From the NCBI GenBank assembly GCA_020073085.1, contig JAIQFV010000002.1:257586-321585 (forward strand): DNA of 64,000 nt. Reading direction: 5' to 3'. Below the pieces are notes generated by a model, which was not told the origin of the DNA, did no database searches, and worked only from the letters and a program-made list of their open reading frames with translations. This document shows positions 22,649 to 53,824 of the stretch, in pieces. A program made the translations under genes and the position numbers. This DNA comes from Terriglobia bacterium (GTDB lineage: Bacteria; Acidobacteriota; Terriglobia; JAIQFV01). Within the stretch, counting starts at the first letter, position 1, and each line of letters opens with the position of its first letter.

Positions 22649-23731
22649 CTATTTCCGGAAATTCTCCAGGGCCAAGGTACGGTTGAGGGCGACACGCGTG
22701 AACACCAGTGACTCCGCCAACTGGCCGGCGATGTAGCGATCGATCCGGAAGGGGAATTTGACGGTCGCGCCCGAGTCTCCAGTCTTGGCTGCAGGCTTTG
22801 CCGAAAACGGCTCGGGGCTCGCCAGGGGGACGTCTCGGTAGTCAGAAAACTCAAAGACCTCGGTGAGCGCGACGGGTTGATTTGAAAACGGATCGGTCGC
22901 CGTATCGTAATCAAATTCCATGCGCGTGACCAGCGAGGTGGCGTCGTCGATGTAATAGCGCGTCGATTTCCCCGGCGAGCTGCCTTGAGGACCATGACCG
23001 TTTCCGGGTGAATCATCGACTTCAATCACCTTCCTGTTCCTGGCTGCCTCAAAGGCTGGAGTGGGATGGGCCCGGTCGCGGTGGCCATTTGCATTCCCGT
23101 TTCCGTTGTCGTTGCCGTTATCGGCAGCTCCGTTGGCGCCCTGGCCTTGTGCGGTAAACCTGTCGGTGAGGTCGGCAAGGTTCTTGCCATGCTTGCGGAA
23201 GTTGAACAGCGCCTCCAGGGAATGTTCGGTTTGGGATTCAATGAAGCGCTGGACATGGCCTGCCGCCTTGGTGCTGAGGGGGCCGGCCGAGTGCCACTGG
23301 TCGTTGCCATCGGTTCCCTCGCGCGTGAGGATCCTCTCGGGAGAGCGAGGATTGACAAAAGAGGACTGTGGCGCAGTGGACCCGTCTGGAGATGCCTCGG
23401 GTGCCTTGAACATGAGTCGCTGAAGCTTGTCGCCCTTGGCGCCACCTCCCGCAGGATCGGCCTGGTGAATCACGGTCACCGGAAACGTCTGCTGCGATTG
23501 CTGCATCTCGTTATCGTAGCGATAAATGGTCACAGTTCCAGTGGCGACCCACGTCTTGACTGCGCCCTTCTGCCAGCCATCTCCATGCGCCTTGGCTGCC
23601 CGATCCGCATGTGCTGAAGGGGAATTGCCCTGGGCCCAACAGGTCATGGAGGCAAACAGCAACAGGGCAATGATGCCCACGAATTGAGCATTGACTCTGA
23701 TCGGCTTCCTAAAGGGTTTCTTATTTGTCAT
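22649..23731 (-). CDS. Exported protein, copy A of a duplicated pair
   Basis: A 360-residue protein with a signal peptide (FVGIIALLLFASMTCWAQ). It has an acidic Asn/Gly-rich low-complexity run (NGNDNGNGNANGHRDR) at about residues 205-220. The C-terminal half (TRYYIDDATSLVTRMEFDYD, FEFSDYRDV, FPFRIDRYIAGQ) reads like the beta-sheet fold of LolA/outer-membrane-lipoprotein-sorting proteins; this comparison is tentative. It is nearly identical along most of its length to the protein at 26051-27154, and the sequence just before the start codon is conserved as well. Function unknown. Confidence 0.75.
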   Translation of the reverse strand: MTNKKPFRKPIRVNAQFVGIIALLLFASMTCWAQGNSPSAHADRAAKAHGDGWQKGAVKTWVATGTVTIYRYDNEMQQSQQTFPVTVIHQADPAGGGAKGDKLQRLMFKAPEASPDGSTAPQSSFVNPRSPERILTREGTDGNDQWHSAGPLSTKAAGHVQRFIESQTEHSLEALFNFRKHGKNLADLTDRFTAQGQGANGAADNGNDNGNGNANGHRDRAHPTPAFEAARNRKVIEVDDSPGNGHGPQGSSPGKSTRYYIDDATSLVTRMEFDYDTATDPFSNQPVALTEVFEFSDYRDVPLASPEPFSAKPAAKTGDSGATVKFPFRIDRYIAGQLAESLVFTRVALNRTLALENFRK

Positions 23732-26050: not shown

Positions 26051-27154
26051 CTACTTCCGGAAATTCTCCGGCGCCAAGGTACGGTTGAGGGCGACGCGCG
26101 TGAAAACGAGCGATTCCGCCAACTGGCCGGCGATGTAGCGATCGATTCGGAACGGGAATTTAACGGTCGCGCCCGAGTCTGCGGCCTTGGCCGCCGGCTT
26201 TGCAGAAAACGGCTCAGGGCTTGCGAGGGGGACGTCACGGTAGTCCGAAAACTCATAGACCTCGGTGAGCGCGACCGGTTGATTTGAGAACGGATCGGTC
26301 GCCGTGTCGTAATCAAATTCCATGCGGGTGACTAGTGAAGTGGCGTCGTCGATGTAATAGCGCGTCGATTGCCCCGGCGAGCCGCCTTGGGGACCATGAC
26401 CGTTTCCGGATGAATCGGCGACTTCAATGACCTTCCTTTTCCTGGCGGCCTCAAAGGCTGGAGTGGGATGGGCTCGATCACGATGTCCATTGGCATTCCC
26501 GTTTCCATTGTCGTTGCCGTTATCCTCGGCTCGGTTGGCGCCCTGGCCCTGTGCAGTAAAGCGGTCGGTGAGGTCTGCAAGGTTCTTCCCATGCTTCCGG
26601 AAGTTGGACAGGGCCTCGAGTGACCGTTCGGTTTGGGATTCAATGAAGCGCTGGACAGGGCCTGCCGCTTTGGTACTGAGCGGGCCGGCCGAATGCCACT
26701 GGTCGGTGCCGTCGGTCCCCTCGCGCGTGAGGATCCTCTCGGGAGAGCGAGGATTGACAAAAGAGGATTGTGGCGCAGTGGACCCGTCTGGAGATGCCTC
26801 GGGTGCCTTGAAAGTGAGCCGCTGGAGCTTATCGCCCCTGGAACCTCCTCCTGCAGGATCAGCCTGGTGAATCACGGTCACCGGAAACGTCTGCTGCGAT
26901 TGCTGAATGTCGCTATTCCCCACGGACGGATCTGAAACATATCGATAGATGGTCATCGTCCCCTGAGCCACCCACGTCTTGACCGCGCCCTTCTGCCAGC
27001 CGTCTCCGTGCGCCATGGCTGCTCGATCCGCATGTGCCACGGCAGAGTTGCCCTGGGCCAAACAGGTCATGGACGCGGACAGTAAGAGAGCAATGATACC
27101 CACAAAGTAACGGCTCGCTCTGATCACCCTTATAAAAGTTTTTTGATTTCTCAT
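26051..27154 (-). CDS. Exported protein, copy B of a duplicated pair
   Basis: A 367-residue paralogue of the protein at 22649-23731. It has the same signal peptide design (YFVGIIALLLSASMTCLAQ), the same Asn/Gly-rich run (DNGNDNGNGNANGHRDR) and the same C-terminus (RVALNRTLAPENFRK). It differs by scattered substitutions and a short insertion (YVSDPSVGNSDIQQ for YDNEMQQ). The conserved leader before the ATG (CCACCTCGG on the plus strand) shows the duplication included the 5' untranslated region. Function unknown. Confidence 0.75.
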   Translation of the reverse strand: MRNQKTFIRVIRASRYFVGIIALLLSASMTCLAQGNSAVAHADRAAMAHGDGWQKGAVKTWVAQGTMTIYRYVSDPSVGNSDIQQSQQTFPVTVIHQADPAGGGSRGDKLQRLTFKAPEASPDGSTAPQSSFVNPRSPERILTREGTDGTDQWHSAGPLSTKAAGPVQRFIESQTERSLEALSNFRKHGKNLADLTDRFTAQGQGANRAEDNGNDNGNGNANGHRDRAHPTPAFEAARKRKVIEVADSSGNGHGPQGGSPGQSTRYYIDDATSLVTRMEFDYDTATDPFSNQPVALTEVYEFSDYRDVPLASPEPFSAKPAAKAADSGATVKFPFRIDRYIAGQLAESLVFTRVALNRTLAPENFRK

Positions 27155-28646: not shown

Positions 28647-31600
28647 CTACCGTGGTAGTATGGCTGTCAGGTAAGCTGTTTCATTCTCCCTGAAGGATAA
28701 TTGTGTGCTGAGAACTAACGGAGTAGCTCCATCGGTCGCGAAACCACTGAATACTTTCTGCATTATTCCCGCGGTTGCATGATGATTCGCGTCCCCGTCA
28801 AACGCCACTCCCGCAAATCGATTGTCCCCATTTTGAGTAACCTGACTTTGGGAATTACTGTTCGGAACCAAACCCAGAACATGTCCGATTTCATGGGCGG
28901 CAACGTTTGCGATGCCGTTTGCGATCAAATCGTTTGACGCTCTCAGCCCTGATCCGTTGATCAAGGGGAGCTGATTGATAAAAACACCCCTAGGCGCAAG
29001 CGCATCACCTCCAAAGATGGCAGGTAAGAAGTCCAAGTCGTTAACAACCGCATCTCCCACTGTAACTGTTTCGGTGTCAGAAAACCTTCGAGGCGGTGAG
29101 AAATTCCCATTCGAGTCTTTCAGCGCTGAAATATCCATCGTCACAACGGCATCAGAGCCGGCGTCTGGCGTCCCCCATCCCGGAGGTTGCGAGAGCATTA
29201 CCACCACGTTCGCGGCGCTAAAGAGCGATTGCACCCTTGCGACAACTGCGGCCTCGATAGAAGCTACATCAGCATCTGAGAGAGCCAGACCCGCGCCGGG
29301 AAAACTCCCCTTCATGAAACTAATCGCGTCAGGGAGAAATCTCAAGTACAGCCTCATGGGACCAACTTGAACGAAGGGTTTCTCCTGAGTCTTGTAGTTT
29401 TTGAGAAATGTATGATCTGGAAGGTATGCTGCGGCCAACACAACACCTGGGGTTGAGTTGCCCGTGACTAATCCTGTCTGATTGACAAAGGCGGTGTCTT
29501 GGCCATTTTGGACTGTGGCGGCAAGCGTGAGCGTAGAGAAGGTTGTGCCTTGAGGAAATTGGGCCAACGAATTTCCTTGGGCGTCGGTCGGTATGAGCTG
29601 GCGAGTTCCCCCCGAGTTCAAAGAAATGATGGAAGGAGAAATGAACGTCGTCTGACTTGGGTCAGCAACATTCACTCTCACACGCGCTTGAGCGGCCGCC
29701 ACTTGGGCTGGCGAATCGTGGGACGGGAAGAAATCCGGCAGAATTCCAGCGGTGCCACGAAAGTCAGCGGTGTAAATAGTTGTTCCTGAAGGCCTAAGAG
29801 GAACAGATTGGCTTAGGTCGCAGGGTGTAAAGTCCAACAATTCATCCCCGCAATCATACGGAGGGTCATTGACATCATCAGTAATATGAACGTGGCTAAT
29901 CCTGATGGGGTTGCCCTGGCTCGTGGAAACAGTCCAAGATAGGGTTGTGGAGGAACCTTCGATGATGGTTTGAGGGGTGGCCGTAAGCGTCGCATTAAGT
30001 CCGGGCGTGACATTCACACACGTGGCACCGGGCGAGAAACTGAAGCCGCCGAGGAAGGTCATGTTGACCAGGCCGGCACAGATCTGCGTATCCTGGGGGA
30101 GACTGACCACGTTGATCGTGTCGGTGCAGACCCCCGGCTGGCTGCAATCCTCCGGCGCGCTGGACAGGAATCCGAGGAGTGGGCGGGTGAACTGGAGGCT
30201 CTTGCTCGTAGGAGTAATAAAACCGATCGTCATGTTCACCGACAAGGCGCAAGGCTCCGGAGTACAGTAACACACTTGTACGTCGGAGATGGAGTTGCAC
30301 GCCAACTGAAATCCCAAACTGGTATAGATGCGCACCCTAATGCCAATGAAACCGACCGTCAGATTGATGGGGTGGCCGATTTTAATATTATGGAGGCAAC
30401 TGGTGTCGAACCAACTGTTGCCGCACTGAATGAAGGGAAGGCCGATCTGGAACGAGGCGACGTCAATTTCCGTGGGGGCGCAGGCGCCCGAGCAAGACCC
30501 GTAATTGTCCAGGATGATGGGTGTGTTGTTGCGCACCTGCTTGTCAAACGATGTGTTGCGGCTGGTCAGTTTGCCCGCTTGGATCTGAATCCCCTGGGCG
30601 CTGGTGAGAGGGCCAACCTGGATTTCGACCGAACTGTCTCCGGCGGCGTTCGAGGCAATGATATGAGCAATTCCCGGAGCCACGTTGGGATCCACCGTGA
30701 GGAGTCCGACGACGATCTCGTAGCCCTCCGGCGCTTGCGAGACACTTTGCAGTTGCACCATGCCTCTTAGTATATGGATGCCGGAATTATCCGCATGGAT
30801 ATCAGCGTTGGCCAGGTTGTTTCCCGTCAAATGAAAGTAGTACACCCCTCCCGCGTTGGGCGTGGCAGGAGCGACCGAATCGATCGTCGGCTTGCTCGCT
30901 GCATCCAGAACCCGAAAAATGACATTGGTGATGCCGTACTGCGGAACAGTCACAGTGAATAAATAGGTTCCCGTGGGAGTCCCGTTGGCAACGACGGTGA
31001 CTTGAAGTTGTGTGTCGCTGACGTTCGAGACAGTGCTGATGGCCAGAGTTGAGTCCGTGGTGACCATCGCCTGGGTCAAATTGCTTCCCGTCAAAGTGAA
31101 CGTCTGAGTGGCCCCGGTAAGCATAGACGTCGGTGAAATGGACGTGACCACGGGCTGGCCTTGCGGGTTCACCGCAGTCACGGAGAAGTTCACGATCTGG
31201 CTTCCCCCGAGCGTCTTGACGGTGATTGGAACGCTTTGAACCGGCGCATCGTTGGCGATTGCCACGAGAGCTGAGATTTGTGTTGCGGTGACCGTGGGCG
31301 GAGGCGAAATCGAAAATGCGACGTGACTGGAGGATGGAACTGAAAGCGTCGCACCGGTGAGATTGGAACCGGCAATGACAATTTCAAAATCATGTTGTCC
31401 TTGCTTGCCGGAAGATGGGGTGATGGTCGCGAGGCTCGGCGGCAAGGCCACACCAATGACCAGATTGGCGGAAACATCCCCAAACCACACCCCATTTTGC
31501 GCCATCTGCCATAGAAAATTGTAAGTTCCAGGTGTTGTGGGTGCAGTGACATTAAAGGAGAAAGTCTTGCTTGCTCCTGGGGGGACCGATTCACCAGCCG

Positions 31601-33836
31601 CCAGCACCACGCGGCTCGGACCCCAGGTCGTGTTGTTCGCAGGGTTTTGAGAGCCCAGCTGGTAGTTTCCTGCCGCATTCCAGGTGGTCGTTCCGGTGTT
31701 GGTCAAGGTCACTGAGACGGCGTAGAGGCCACCCGGAACCATTACCGTCGGAACGGATTGGCTGACGAATTGGGCATTGTTGACCATCACATTCAGCGAG
31801 CCCGAAGCAGTCCCGCATGGAGTGCTTATATGAAAGGGCTGGAGCCCAGCCGGGACGTCAGTGGCCAAGGAGACGGTGGCGGTGACGGGGCTGCCGTCAT
31901 ACCAGGGATCCGGGGAGTAACTGGGGAATGTGATCCCCGCAGCGTCGCTCCATATCGTCAGTGGACCGCACAATCGCGTCCCCGTGATAGAATACGTGGT
32001 GGTCGTCCCTGCCACGACAGGCCCTATCGTATTGGGCACAATCGCCAGGTCCGGGGGATTGGGACATCGGATCGAGATCGCAGCCGACTGGTCGGCCCAT
32101 GGGATGGCAGGAAGCAGTGAATCCCTCAATCCAGTATACGCATAATCTCCGATCGCTGTGCACCTCGAAGCGAAAAGAGGGGCCTGAGCTAACTGACCCG
32201 CTGATTCATTGGAGGCCCAGCTAAACACCGGCCAGCCGTAAGTGTACTCCGGCCCGAGTCCATTCAAAAGATAGCGGCTGTCGGCCGTGACACTTCCCAT
32301 GTTGCCCGCTGACATGGTGAAGGTGCCCGGCGGAACCATTGAGGCTGGCGAAATTGTGAGGGTATTGGGGTAGGGTATCGGTGGGTTTATTGTAAGGCTG
32401 ACCGGCGGTGACAGCATCACCCAGGTGCTGGCATCAGCGTTCTTGATGGCCCGATAGGTGTAAGTGCCTGTGCCGTCGTTGTGATTGACCGTCACTTTGA
32501 CTTTCCCCTGGCTGTCGAGCTGCTTCTCCCATCGGGCCACGGTCACCACATTCCCCGGATTGCCCGACCATTCGTATTGCAAGCTCAACCACAGGTTGGC
32601 CCCATTGCCCACCGTCAGCCAGTAATCTCCGTTGCCGGCATTCTGGGAAGTTGGCGAGAAACTCATGGAGGTAGGCTGGGGGTAAACCGAAGGCGTGCTC
32701 TGATTCAGCGTGGAGGCGCCGAACCAGCCCACACCCTCTCGCACCATCCGCCACTGGAAGTTGTAGGTGTTGGGGGTGGAAGGGGCTGTGATTGCAAACG
32801 TAAAGGTCTTGTTCGCTCCCGGCACAACGCTCTCACCTGTCGCCAGCGTCACCCGGCTCAAGCCCCACGTCGTGTTGCTGGCAGGGTTCTGTGACCCCAA
32901 CCGATAGCTTTGGCTTTCACTCCACGTTGTAGTGCCGCTGTTGCGCATCGTTACCGACACGGTATAAGTGCGCCCAGCCTCCAAAGGCGAGGGCAATGTG
33001 GTTTGACTTATGAAGCCGGCATTATCCACCATTGAGTTGACCGTGATGCGCGTGGTGGCTGTCGTGGAGTCGCCGCTACTATTGTAGACCGTGAGCGTGT
33101 AAGTCGTAGTGGCGGTCGGGGTGACCCACATCCAGCCGCTCGGGCTGACGTACTGGCCGTTGATCTTGGCTGAAGAAACATTCTCGCCGTCCCAGTTCAA
33201 GTAGGTTCCATCTCCCCGGTTGATGGTGGATTGATCAGGGTAAAAATAGCTGACCGAAGGGGGAGCAGGCCGAGGATAGAGCGTCAGCGGGGTGGAAATG
33301 TTGGTCCAGGCGCCGTTCGGTCCATTGTTCGAATTGCGAATTCCGGTGAAGGTGTAACTGCCGGCGAAGGAATCACTGTCGTAATAGTTGTCAACACAAC
33401 CATCCGCCCCAAACGTGACCCCGTAGTCGGTTTCATACGGGACGCCGTCCCAGTAGTACTTCAGATCGACCGTCATGTTGGCCCCGCCGCCAGCACAGAA
33501 CCTCACCGTACCGGGCATGGTGAGACTGGGGGTGCTCGCCGACAGTGAAGTGGGATTGGGCGCAGCGGCATTCATCAGAAGTGGAGAGGCGAGCAGCAGA
33601 CTGAGAAGGCAAAGCATGAGAAGAGAAATCAGGTCTGGTCTCCATGTCGTTCTTCCGGCGCCAGGCGAATCTCCAGCGGAGGAATCACTCTCTGATGAAT
33701 TCTCATTTACAGAAATCCAGGGTGGACAGTCTCGAGTCCCGACTTGCTGTGCTTCAAGATTCTCGGATGCGCCGTTCCCACCCAAGATGACAGAGCCCTG
33801 CCGGGGCGAATTGATTCGAGGTGCCGGTGCTGACAT
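28647..33836 (-). CDS. 1729-residue Ig-like/TIG repeat protein with C-terminal metalloprotease domain
   Basis: GGAGG lies five bases before ATG 33836; the frame is open to 33983 but this start is the best supported. About 70 hydrophilic residues precede a hydrophobic span (LISLLMLCLLSLLLASPLLM). Two NBR1-like Ig domains repeat (YTVSVTMRNSGTTTWSESQS and YAVSVTLTNTGTTTWNAAGN). Several IPT/TIG-like units follow (ITPSSGKQGQHDFEIVIAGS, ISPTSMLTGATQTFTLTGSN). Near the C-terminus VAAHEIGHVLGLVPNS carries an HExxH zinc site (first His about residue 1648), with NHHATAGIM as a possible Met-turn. The usual metzincin third ligand position is Pro. Probably a large surface-anchored protease. Confidence 0.8.
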   Translation of the reverse strand: MSAPAPRINSPRQGSVILGGNGASENLEAQQVGTRDCPPWISVNENSSESDSSAGDSPGAGRTTWRPDLISLLMLCLLSLLLASPLLMNAAAPNPTSLSASTPSLTMPGTVRFCAGGGANMTVDLKYYWDGVPYETDYGVTFGADGCVDNYYDSDSFAGSYTFTGIRNSNNGPNGAWTNISTPLTLYPRPAPPSVSYFYPDQSTINRGDGTYLNWDGENVSSAKINGQYVSPSGWMWVTPTATTTYTLTVYNSSGDSTTATTRITVNSMVDNAGFISQTTLPSPLEAGRTYTVSVTMRNSGTTTWSESQSYRLGSQNPASNTTWGLSRVTLATGESVVPGANKTFTFAITAPSTPNTYNFQWRMVREGVGWFGASTLNQSTPSVYPQPTSMSFSPTSQNAGNGDYWLTVGNGANLWLSLQYEWSGNPGNVVTVARWEKQLDSQGKVKVTVNHNDGTGTYTYRAIKNADASTWVMLSPPVSLTINPPIPYPNTLTISPASMVPPGTFTMSAGNMGSVTADSRYLLNGLGPEYTYGWPVFSWASNESAGQLAQAPLFASRCTAIGDYAYTGLRDSLLPAIPWADQSAAISIRCPNPPDLAIVPNTIGPVVAGTTTTYSITGTRLCGPLTIWSDAAGITFPSYSPDPWYDGSPVTATVSLATDVPAGLQPFHISTPCGTASGSLNVMVNNAQFVSQSVPTVMVPGGLYAVSVTLTNTGTTTWNAAGNYQLGSQNPANNTTWGPSRVVLAAGESVPPGASKTFSFNVTAPTTPGTYNFLWQMAQNGVWFGDVSANLVIGVALPPSLATITPSSGKQGQHDFEIVIAGSNLTGATLSVPSSSHVAFSISPPPTVTATQISALVAIANDAPVQSVPITVKTLGGSQIVNFSVTAVNPQGQPVVTSISPTSMLTGATQTFTLTGSNLTQAMVTTDSTLAISTVSNVSDTQLQVTVVANGTPTGTYLFTVTVPQYGITNVIFRVLDAASKPTIDSVAPATPNAGGVYYFHLTGNNLANADIHADNSGIHILRGMVQLQSVSQAPEGYEIVVGLLTVDPNVAPGIAHIIASNAAGDSSVEIQVGPLTSAQGIQIQAGKLTSRNTSFDKQVRNNTPIILDNYGSCSGACAPTEIDVASFQIGLPFIQCGNSWFDTSCLHNIKIGHPINLTVGFIGIRVRIYTSLGFQLACNSISDVQVCYCTPEPCALSVNMTIGFITPTSKSLQFTRPLLGFLSSAPEDCSQPGVCTDTINVVSLPQDTQICAGLVNMTFLGGFSFSPGATCVNVTPGLNATLTATPQTIIEGSSTTLSWTVSTSQGNPIRISHVHITDDVNDPPYDCGDELLDFTPCDLSQSVPLRPSGTTIYTADFRGTAGILPDFFPSHDSPAQVAAAQARVRVNVADPSQTTFISPSIISLNSGGTRQLIPTDAQGNSLAQFPQGTTFSTLTLAATVQNGQDTAFVNQTGLVTGNSTPGVVLAAAYLPDHTFLKNYKTQEKPFVQVGPMRLYLRFLPDAISFMKGSFPGAGLALSDADVASIEAAVVARVQSLFSAANVVVMLSQPPGWGTPDAGSDAVVTMDISALKDSNGNFSPPRRFSDTETVTVGDAVVNDLDFLPAIFGGDALAPRGVFINQLPLINGSGLRASNDLIANGIANVAAHEIGHVLGLVPNSNSQSQVTQNGDNRFAGVAFDGDANHHATAGIMQKVFSGFATDGATPLVLSTQLSFRENETAYLTAILPR

Positions 33837-34413
33837 AAGAGCCTCCTCCGGGGAAAGAGGAAAAAGGGATGAAAGGAACAACATCCTAAATTTGAACCTG
33901 GGGTCGCTCGTGGTGACGAGTTTGAAGGGGGAAGAACACGAGCGCTTTAATCGATAACATAGAGCGGGGGGTGGGGGCGTCAAGAGTTATTTGCAAAAAC
34001 TTTCACAAAGTAACGCTCACGTTTGGTTCCGATTTCAGTTTTTCTGAGGATGAATAGAAACAGAATTCAGACGAGAGGCTTCAACTATCTTCTGCGCCGT
34101 GCGCGGACTCCGATGATACGGAGTGTGATGACTTGTCCACTCTTTGTGGAAGACTGCTTGTTATGGCAGTAGGGGCGCATCGCCATGCGCCCCCCGGACG
34201 TTGGACATTCGCGGTTCATGTATCAGCGTAAAGAATCAGGTTTTTCGAAGAATTCGGGGCGCATGGCTATGCGCCCCTACGAGGGATGATGGACATTTTG
34301 GTAAGATGCCTAGTGACGTTCGTGTCCGAAGGCCGATTGACTCGACGCGTGCACCCCGATAGGTCGGGGCATGCACCACCCCGGCCGAAGTTTGAAGATG
34401 AGAGGAACGTGCC
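33837..34413. other. Intergenic region with dispersed palindromes
   Basis: No gene is supported in these 577 bp. The stretch next to the giant gene is unremarkable; the part near 34170-34370 holds three palindromes described separately, just before the selenoprotein gene. Confidence 0.4.
34172..34369. repeat. Dispersed palindromic repeats
   Basis: GGGGCGCAT-N4-ATGCGCCCC occurs twice, at 34172-34193 (loop CGCC) and 34256-34277 (loop GGCT). CCCCGA-TAGG-TCGGGG lies at 34354-34369. The first family is related to the hairpin at 459-486 and the second to the palindromes at 21704 and 21769, so both families recur in the window. Confidence 0.6.
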
Positions 34414-35061
34414 ATGAGTGACAGAATCCCCATGATTGTGTTTTCAGATTATCTTTGACCGTGGTGCTACAACGCCGCGGTGCGGCTGCGAATCATCCAG
34501 AGAGAGTTTCAGGACTCTATTGAGATGATCGAGAAGTTCTTCCCGTTGCGGCGAGGTGTGGAAAACCATGCCGAATTCACGGAATATATCATTGAGCATC
34601 GTCACGCCGCCAGCGAGCAATTGAAGTCCGATGCCGAAGTGACCGATCCTCCCGCCTTCTCCATTCCTCCCCTGGGGACCCGTTATCCGCGCTCCTCGAT
34701 GCCGGCTTTGGAGGCTGCAGCCTTTGTCCAACGGAATTATCCGGATCGTTTTGACGCCTTCGACCTGGCTCTATTTCAGGCATTCTTCACCCGTACTGAG
34801 GACATCAGCAACATCGATTTCCTGGTTCGCCTGGCGTTTGACTACAACATCAGCATGGAGACCCTGCGGGAGGCCCTGGAATCCAGGCAATTCAGAGAAA
34901 CCGTAATGAAGGATTTTCGAGTAGCGGCGGAGGAGTTTGGGGTCACGGGAATCCCCACTGTCATTCTCCCGGACCAGTTCCCTATCGTCGGCGCTGTTGC
35001 GACCAGCCAGTATCGGGAGGCAGTTCAGCGTGCGATTCGGGAGCGGGTTCATGCGCCGTGA
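34414..35061 (+). CDS. DsbA/FrnE-like thiol oxidoreductase with in-frame TGA (selenocysteine) in the active site
   Basis: A 215-residue product if TGA at 34456-34458 is read as selenocysteine (residue 15). ATG 34414 has GAGG eight bases upstream. The N-terminus reads MSDRIPMIVFSDYL-U-PWCYNA, where FrnE/DsbA proteins have (C)PWC, so the TGA takes the place of the first redox Cys. The same frame continues without break to 35061. The cis-Pro loop is GVTGIPTVILPDQF and the helical insert contains LFQAFFTRTEDISNIDFL, as in FrnE. A SECIS-like hairpin follows the TGA. No signal peptide is visible, so the protein is probably cytoplasmic. The alternative is a nonsense mutation with translation restarting at GTG 34480, which would lack the active site. 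Confidence 0.85.
34474..34486 (+). promoter_or_regulatory. Candidate bacterial SECIS hairpin (DsbA-like gene)
   Basis: GCCGC (34474-34478) and GCGGC (34482-34486) form a 5-bp stem with a GGT loop. The loop begins 20 nt after the TGA, within the distance and loop-G pattern expected for bacterial SECIS elements. Confidence 0.6.
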
Positions 35062-52774: not shown

Positions 52775-53824
52775 ATGAGCACAACAAATAAAACCGTCAG
52801 GTTGACTAGCCTGGTAAAAGCCGCGGGTTGAGCCGCTAAGATTGGTCCAAAGGATTTGGACCAGATTCTCAGCCGGCTTCCCCGGCAACATGACAAGAAT
52901 CTGTTGGTTGGCTTTGAAACCAACGACGATGCCGGCGTGTACCTGATCGCACCCGATCAGGCCCTGGTTCAGACCGTGGATTTTTTTACTCCAATTGTAG
53001 ATGATCCCTACCAATTTGGCCAAATTTCTGCGGCCAATTCCCTGAGTGATGTCTACGCGATGGGTGGGACTCCCATCTCATCTCTTACTATTGTAGGATT
53101 TCCAAGGAGTGGATTGGATTTTGGAATTCTCGAGAGTATCCTTGCTGGAGGGATGAATAAGATGATGGAGGCCGGGTGCACCGTTGTGGGGGGCCACTCC
53201 ATCGGGGATGAGGAGATTAAGTTCGGATATGCCGTTACGGGACTGATTGACCCCGGAAAGGTGATTCGAAATGTGGGAGCCAAAGAGGGGGATGTTCTCG
53301 TTTTAACCAAACCCTTGGGAACCGGGGTGATCGGCACCGCGTTGAAGCGGGAAGCGGTGGACGATTCAGTGGTTCAAGCATCGGTCCGCTGGATGATCCA
53401 GTTGAACCGCCAAGCCTCCAAGATTGCACGGGGCTACGAACTTCACGCCATGACCGACGTCACGGGATTCGGACTTCTGGGCCACGCTCGAATGATGGCG
53501 CAAGGTAGCAGCGTGACCCTCGAATTCGATCACACCCGGATTCCCGCCATTGAGGGGGCGATGGATTGTATCGAGAGGAAGATGATCCCGGGCGGGCTGG
53601 TCAATAACCGGAAGTACCTGGAGCCTCTCGTCGAATTCACGGCGGCAGTGCCTGAATCGATCCGCACGCTTCTTTACGATCCCCAGACCTCGGGGGGCCT
53701 GCTGATTTCCTGCCCCGTGGATCAGGCCGAGCCCATGATTCTCGAGATGCAACGTCACGAAATACCCGCCAGCGCCATTGGTAAGGCGGTTGAAATGGGT
53801 CCGATGCCTCTCCGGGTGATCTGA
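52775..53824 (+). CDS. selD: Selenide, water dikinase SelD with in-frame TGA (selenocysteine)
   Basis: A 349-residue protein if TGA at 52829-52831 encodes selenocysteine at residue 19. The text is TSLVKAAG-U-AAKIGPKDLD, where SelD has Cys or Sec. The conserved Lys lies just before it. Further motifs are FETNDDAGVYLIAPDQALVQ, QISAANSLSDVYAMGGTP, VVGGHSIGDEEIKFGYAVTG, DVTGFGLLGHARMM and YDPQTSGGLLISC. It makes selenophosphate from selenide and ATP for Sec-tRNA synthesis. A perfect hairpin follows the TGA. Without readthrough, the protein starting at TTG 52856 would lack the catalytic region. Confidence 0.93.
52843..52863 (+). promoter_or_regulatory. Candidate bacterial SECIS hairpin (selD)
   Basis: TGGTCCAAA (52843-52851) and TTTGGACCA (52855-52863) form a perfect 9-bp stem with a GGA loop that begins 20 nt after the TGA. 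The spacing and loop type equal those in the DsbA-like gene. Confidence 0.75.

Follow-up and report, generated by a model that had tools for sequence, protein, structure and literature searches.

A selenocysteine-containing member of the DsbA family, belonging to the cytoplasmic FrnE/COG2761 branch, is in our reading (with a probability of roughly 0.95) encoded at positions 34414-35061, plus strand, of the window, a stretch of 64,000 nucleotides from the genome of a Terriglobia bacterium (Acidobacteriota): its UGA would be decoded by way of SelB and a SECIS element, and its redox role would depend on the selenocysteine (Sec, U) at residue 15. Selenoproteins of this family have been known since 2005, and the protein adds one more to them without being of a new kind; the new part is the divergent branch found in this lineage, which seems to be unreported in the literature searched. 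Gene, reading frame, decoding machinery, conservation and fold class can all be read from sequence, and each is taken up below alongside the explanations that compete with it.

The gene opens at an ATG preceded at 7 nt by a probable ribosome binding site (AGAGGA, 34401-34406, plus strand), as an earlier note made from the DNA letters had proposed, and runs for 215 residues, U15 included, to a terminal TGA at 35059-35061. Translation of the frame gives MSDRIPMIVFSDYL-U-PWCYNAAVRL..., with one internal TGA at codon 15 (34456-34458, plus strand), and the N-terminus with Sec in place reads MSDRIPMIVFSDYLUPWCYNAAVRLR.... No signal peptide is evident in the sequence, and C18 is both the sole Cys of the protein and its only redox residue besides U15. 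Family similarity had been claimed on both sides of the TGA, and the Pfam DSBA domain (PF01323) does cover residues 8-204 (E 2e-19) with 70.5 bits, above the gathering score of 25.6. The same note had placed the single TGA at the first Cys of a CPWC motif and pointed to homologue alignment as a check: the CPWC of FrnE structures in the PDB (5cnw/5cp1) aligns with the UPWC of the window protein, and the TGA falls at the first Cys in alignment A1 also. Alongside this UxxC motif the protein has, ahead of the third strand, the Pro conserved at the cis-Pro position (TGIPT), and P181 is kept in at least 90% of the rows of A1. An AF2 model built from a 15-row alignment has a mean pLDDT of 90, and its best Foldseek matches are to FrnE of Deinococcus radiodurans (5xwh, TMq 0.79, E 3e-10). 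Membership of the FrnE/DsbA family thus holds by sequence homology and by predicted fold; from its similarity to FrnE the protein would also belong to COG2761, which we take to be the FrnE family.

Scans for promoters and terminators found nothing, and no operon partner points to the substrate. The adjoining gene (28647-33983, minus strand) encodes a very long surface-type protein (1778 aa) in which Ig-like stretches are repeated and the C-terminal part bears a metalloprotease-like motif, HEIGHVLGL. Also on the minus strand, 22649-23731 (MTNKKPF...) and 26051-27154 (MRNQKTF...) are near-duplicate ORFs with long similar stretches, separated by about 2.3 kb. The AtpD protein encoded in the window shows its greatest similarity, among the named genomes tried, to those of an Acidobacteria gp5 genome (82%) and another acidobacterium (80%), which makes an acidobacterial host probable.

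It can be predicted with high confidence that the TGA at codon 15 is read as Sec. The presence of selA, selB and selC, on which the earlier note had made its claim of Sec in place of the first active-site Cys depend, is clear in the host genome (68 contigs, 98.7% complete): SelA scores 563 bits, SelB 391 bits, and a tRNA-Sec with anticodon tca is encoded. The selD gene that it had recognised in the window is confirmed (TIGR00476, 381 bits). This selenophosphate synthetase (52775-53824, plus strand) is itself encoded with Sec (AAGUAAKIGP), its own in-frame TGA (52829-52831) standing where SelD proteins usually have Sec or Cys and being kept in a same-genus genome, G297; a SECIS-like hairpin follows at 52832-52879, with a GGA loop (52852-52854) 20 nt after the UGA, a fold z of -4.5 and pair probabilities of 0.54-1.0 in the apical stem. 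A plain ORF caller begins selD at 52856, too late, the true start being upstream at 52775. Together the machinery, the placement of the TGA at a Cys column and its conservation in G297 support the replacement of the first active-site Cys by Sec.

Were the TGA instead a sequencing error or the mark of a pseudogene, with a Cys codon turned into TGA, translation would end at codon 14 or restart at the GTG at 34480, and the restart would cost the protein its active site along with its first strand. Such errors or decay do occur, as illustrated by G014, which has CPW-TGA at the second Cys and no SelB over the cut-off. Against this, the TGA of the DsbA-like gene is kept in the separate genome G297, and between the two copies the sequence after the TGA differs by a dS of 0.39 and a dN of only 0.018: a dN/dS of 0.046, and hence strong purifying selection on the frame beyond the TGA as protein. 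Sequencing error, which the earlier note had named as a risk to its claim, is refuted by the G297 copy, and on these grounds it and pseudogene formation are set aside, the two together being highly improbable. The full Sec machinery of the genome weighs in the same direction, as does a TGA in the same column of G297, G067 and more than 100 other contigs, remote homologues included. A recoded genome, in which TGA stands for tryptophan or some other amino acid, would also leave the frame open, TGA then being a sense codon, and is more improbable still: the gene's own terminal stop is TGA, the internal TGAs examined align to Sec/Cys columns of DsbA and SelD, the tca-bearing tRNA-Sec is present, and the residue found in relatives at the TGA position is the catalytic Cys, not Trp. 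In atpD of G297 a TGA had been reported as internal, but it lies upstream of the true start and is not a recoding.

Decoding as Sec would further call for a SECIS element. A bacterial SECIS is a hairpin after the UGA, about 16-37 nt downstream, that has a G among the first two bases of its loop. The earlier note had seen a GGN-loop hairpin at this distance, and its position and loop are borne out: the predicted apical hairpin GCCGC-GGU-GCGGC (34474-34486, plus strand) has its GGU loop at 34479-34481, 20 nt after the UGA, and the identical 13 nt hairpin occurs in a Rokuibacteriota gene, L067. In the single gene, however, the hairpin is not significant under synonymous recoding (P 0.12), and a competing fold, CCGUGGUGC/GCCGCGG, is more stable when the UGA-adjacent bases are free; the GGU hairpin is absent from free folds of 45-111 nt after the UGA and becomes the best fold only once six bases, counted from the UGA, are withheld. 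With a P of 0.12 for the window gene alone and a different hairpin favoured in its free fold, it is the family that carries the SECIS claim. Across 112 genes there is a strong bias at codons +5 to +10 downstream of the UGA, as measured against codons elsewhere in the same genes (Leu CTC 96% vs 24%, Ser AGT 87% vs 11%, Ile ATT 95-98% vs 29% and Arg CGT 78% vs 13%), and usage returns to background by codons +12 to +13. Of these genes 70% have a hairpin of at least 5 pairs whose loop contains a G and lies about 20 nt past the UGA, vs 4% when they are synonymously recoded. This family-wide synonymous-site signature is a clean SECIS signal and could serve for finding more members.

Relatives were sought by scanning the DNA pattern [WF]SDxxUPWC[YF] over named genomes, which matched at least 117 contigs from at least 10 phyla by record titles, with about a dozen chance matches expected on a rough arithmetic estimate from pattern information. 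Nearly all matches are open DsbA-type frames extending some 190 residues after U, a few being truncated or cut by contig ends. Their record titles assign them to Thermodesulfobacteriota, Myxococcota, Pseudomonadota, Chloroflexota, Actinomycetota, Acidobacteriota, Planctomycetota, Binatota, Rokuibacteriota, Methylomirabilota and others. Relatives in viral contigs were not found, and a tblastn search of plasmids returned remote Cys homologues only. In the host phylum, the profile matched in 21 of 297 sampled genomes, several of them carrying TGA at the position of the first Cys. All ten host-phylum genomes with UPxC, G297 included, have SelB over the cut-off; it is missing in some Cys-form genomes (such as G199) and present in others. 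In one set 16 of 18 genomes pass, the two that fail being the Cys-bearing G199 and the fragmentary genome of L028. Neither G014 nor G256, in which the TGA is not at the first Cys or not placeable, has SelB over the cut-off. The CPW-TGA of G014 (L158, minus strand, near base 58 when reverse-complemented) might have been a second way of placing Sec, a reading rejected because the genome has no SelB over the cut-off; the TGA is probably decay or error. The DsbA-like gene is dispensable, because the same-family genome G298 has SelB and no detectable copy of it.

A quick tree, with many open forks, places the window protein and its G297 copy inside a 10-row Sec-only clade (SH-aLRT 99) within a large Sec group; since the Sec rows were found by the UPWC pattern, this clade is inflated and in part a product of sampling. 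It also holds sequences from Rokuibacteriota/Rokubacteria, Binatota, Methylomirabilota and Actinomycetota. The window protein itself shares 22-34% identity with all rows of alignment A1 except the same-genus copy. Three further host-phylum sequences, L156, L157 (UPYC) and L160 (UPFC), lie apart from the UPWC group beside a CPYC relative (L155), an arrangement that suggests separate exchanges between Cys and Sec. An unnamed, ancestrally Sec-containing subfamily of seleno-DsbA, comprising this probably acidobacterial genus together with Rokubacteria, Binatota, Methylomirabilota and Actinomycetota, and having a GGU-type SECIS and a substrate of its own, is conceivable, though we regard it as rather doubtful.

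As to what the protein does, Sec-tRNA-Sec would decode the UGA at codon 15, SelB delivering it whilst bound to the hairpin just downstream, and the product would adopt a thioredoxin fold into which a helical domain is inserted. At its N-terminus the first helix would carry U15, the attacking residue, which would form either a mixed selenenylsulfide with the substrate or a U15-C18 selenenylsulfide, the latter to be re-reduced by thioredoxin or a low-molecular thiol. By analogy with FrnE of D. radiodurans, U15 may attack disulfides and C18 resolve, and the protein is likely to be a cytoplasmic thiol-disulfide oxidoreductase working through the U15-C18 selenenylsulfide, whose most likely job, in oxidative stress, would be to reduce or isomerise disulfides of the cytosol or related adducts. 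We infer in this way the selenium in the protein, the redox direction, the partner and the substrate. It is unlikely, if a good deal less remote than a misread TGA, that the selenoprotein is mainly an oxidant forming disulfides as DsbA does, or is GST-like or like 2-hydroxychromene-2-carboxylate isomerase, rather than a disulfide reductase. Kappa-class GST and 2-hydroxychromene-2-carboxylate isomerase share the fold and are among the Foldseek matches, but CXXC proteins top the ranking (FrnE and, alongside it, a putative PDI of Nitrosomonas) and DsbM is matched too; the resolving Cys is kept in UPWC, as is typical of thiol-disulfide exchange, and the lack of an evident signal peptide argues against periplasmic oxidation.

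Seleno-DsbA proteins have a published history: one of COG2761 carrying UxxC was described in 2005 in a study of the Sargasso Sea (PMC1088965), others were listed for several genomes in 2006 (PMC1794560), 45 sequences were counted in 41 organisms in 2016 (PMC5029168), and a 2026 review tabulates a 'DsbA-like protein form 1' (PMC13188914). The present matches, from at least 10 phyla by record titles, indicate that seleno-DsbA/FrnE proteins are commoner and wider spread than the 45 sequences of 2016 (PMC5029168). The earlier note's suggestion that a FrnE-type selenoprotein may be undescribed therefore fails for the family, which was known by 2005 (PMC1088965, PMC13188914), and stands only for this branch and lineage, which seems unreported; UPWC named together with a selenoprotein was not found in the literature searched. 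The window protein stays below the cut-off of every NCBIfam model, and its aligned relatives match the same weak families only; because of this, many genomes are probably annotated with the N-terminal active site missing. Membership of one such family, the Rcas_1661 family of thioredoxin-like (seleno)lipoproteins (NF041057, DsbG-like), of which Sec variants are known, was rejected, the weak profile match giving 22.6 bits vs a cut-off of 190.

Of the systems compared, the known DsbA-like selenoprotein (COG2761, PF01323) has the same fold family, Sec for the first Cys of UxxC and a bSECIS just downstream, where the window gene has its predicted hairpin; the window protein differs in lying on a divergent branch, and the label FrnE is unused in the two sources (PMC1088965, PMC13188914). 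The best structural match, FrnE of D. radiodurans (DR_0659; 5cnw, 5xwh), is described as a disulfide reductase of the cytoplasm that has a part in tolerance to cadmium and diamide (PMC8945050), and its CPWC aligns with the UPWC of the window protein, which is likewise predicted to be cytoplasmic. It has Cys where the window protein has Sec, and carries an additional C-terminal CX4C, proposed to serve regeneration, which the window protein lacks. The window protein thus has the FrnE fold without this CX4C, a motif present in many, not all, FrnE proteins; with C18 its only Cys, it is FrnE-like rather than of the D. radiodurans type, and an outside reductant such as thioredoxin becomes more likely. 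In this respect it resembles the cd03025 FrnE-like proteins of some Deinococcus (CGWC/CIWC), which likewise have one redox motif and lack Cys elsewhere (PMC8945050); those proteins carry Cys where the window protein has Sec.
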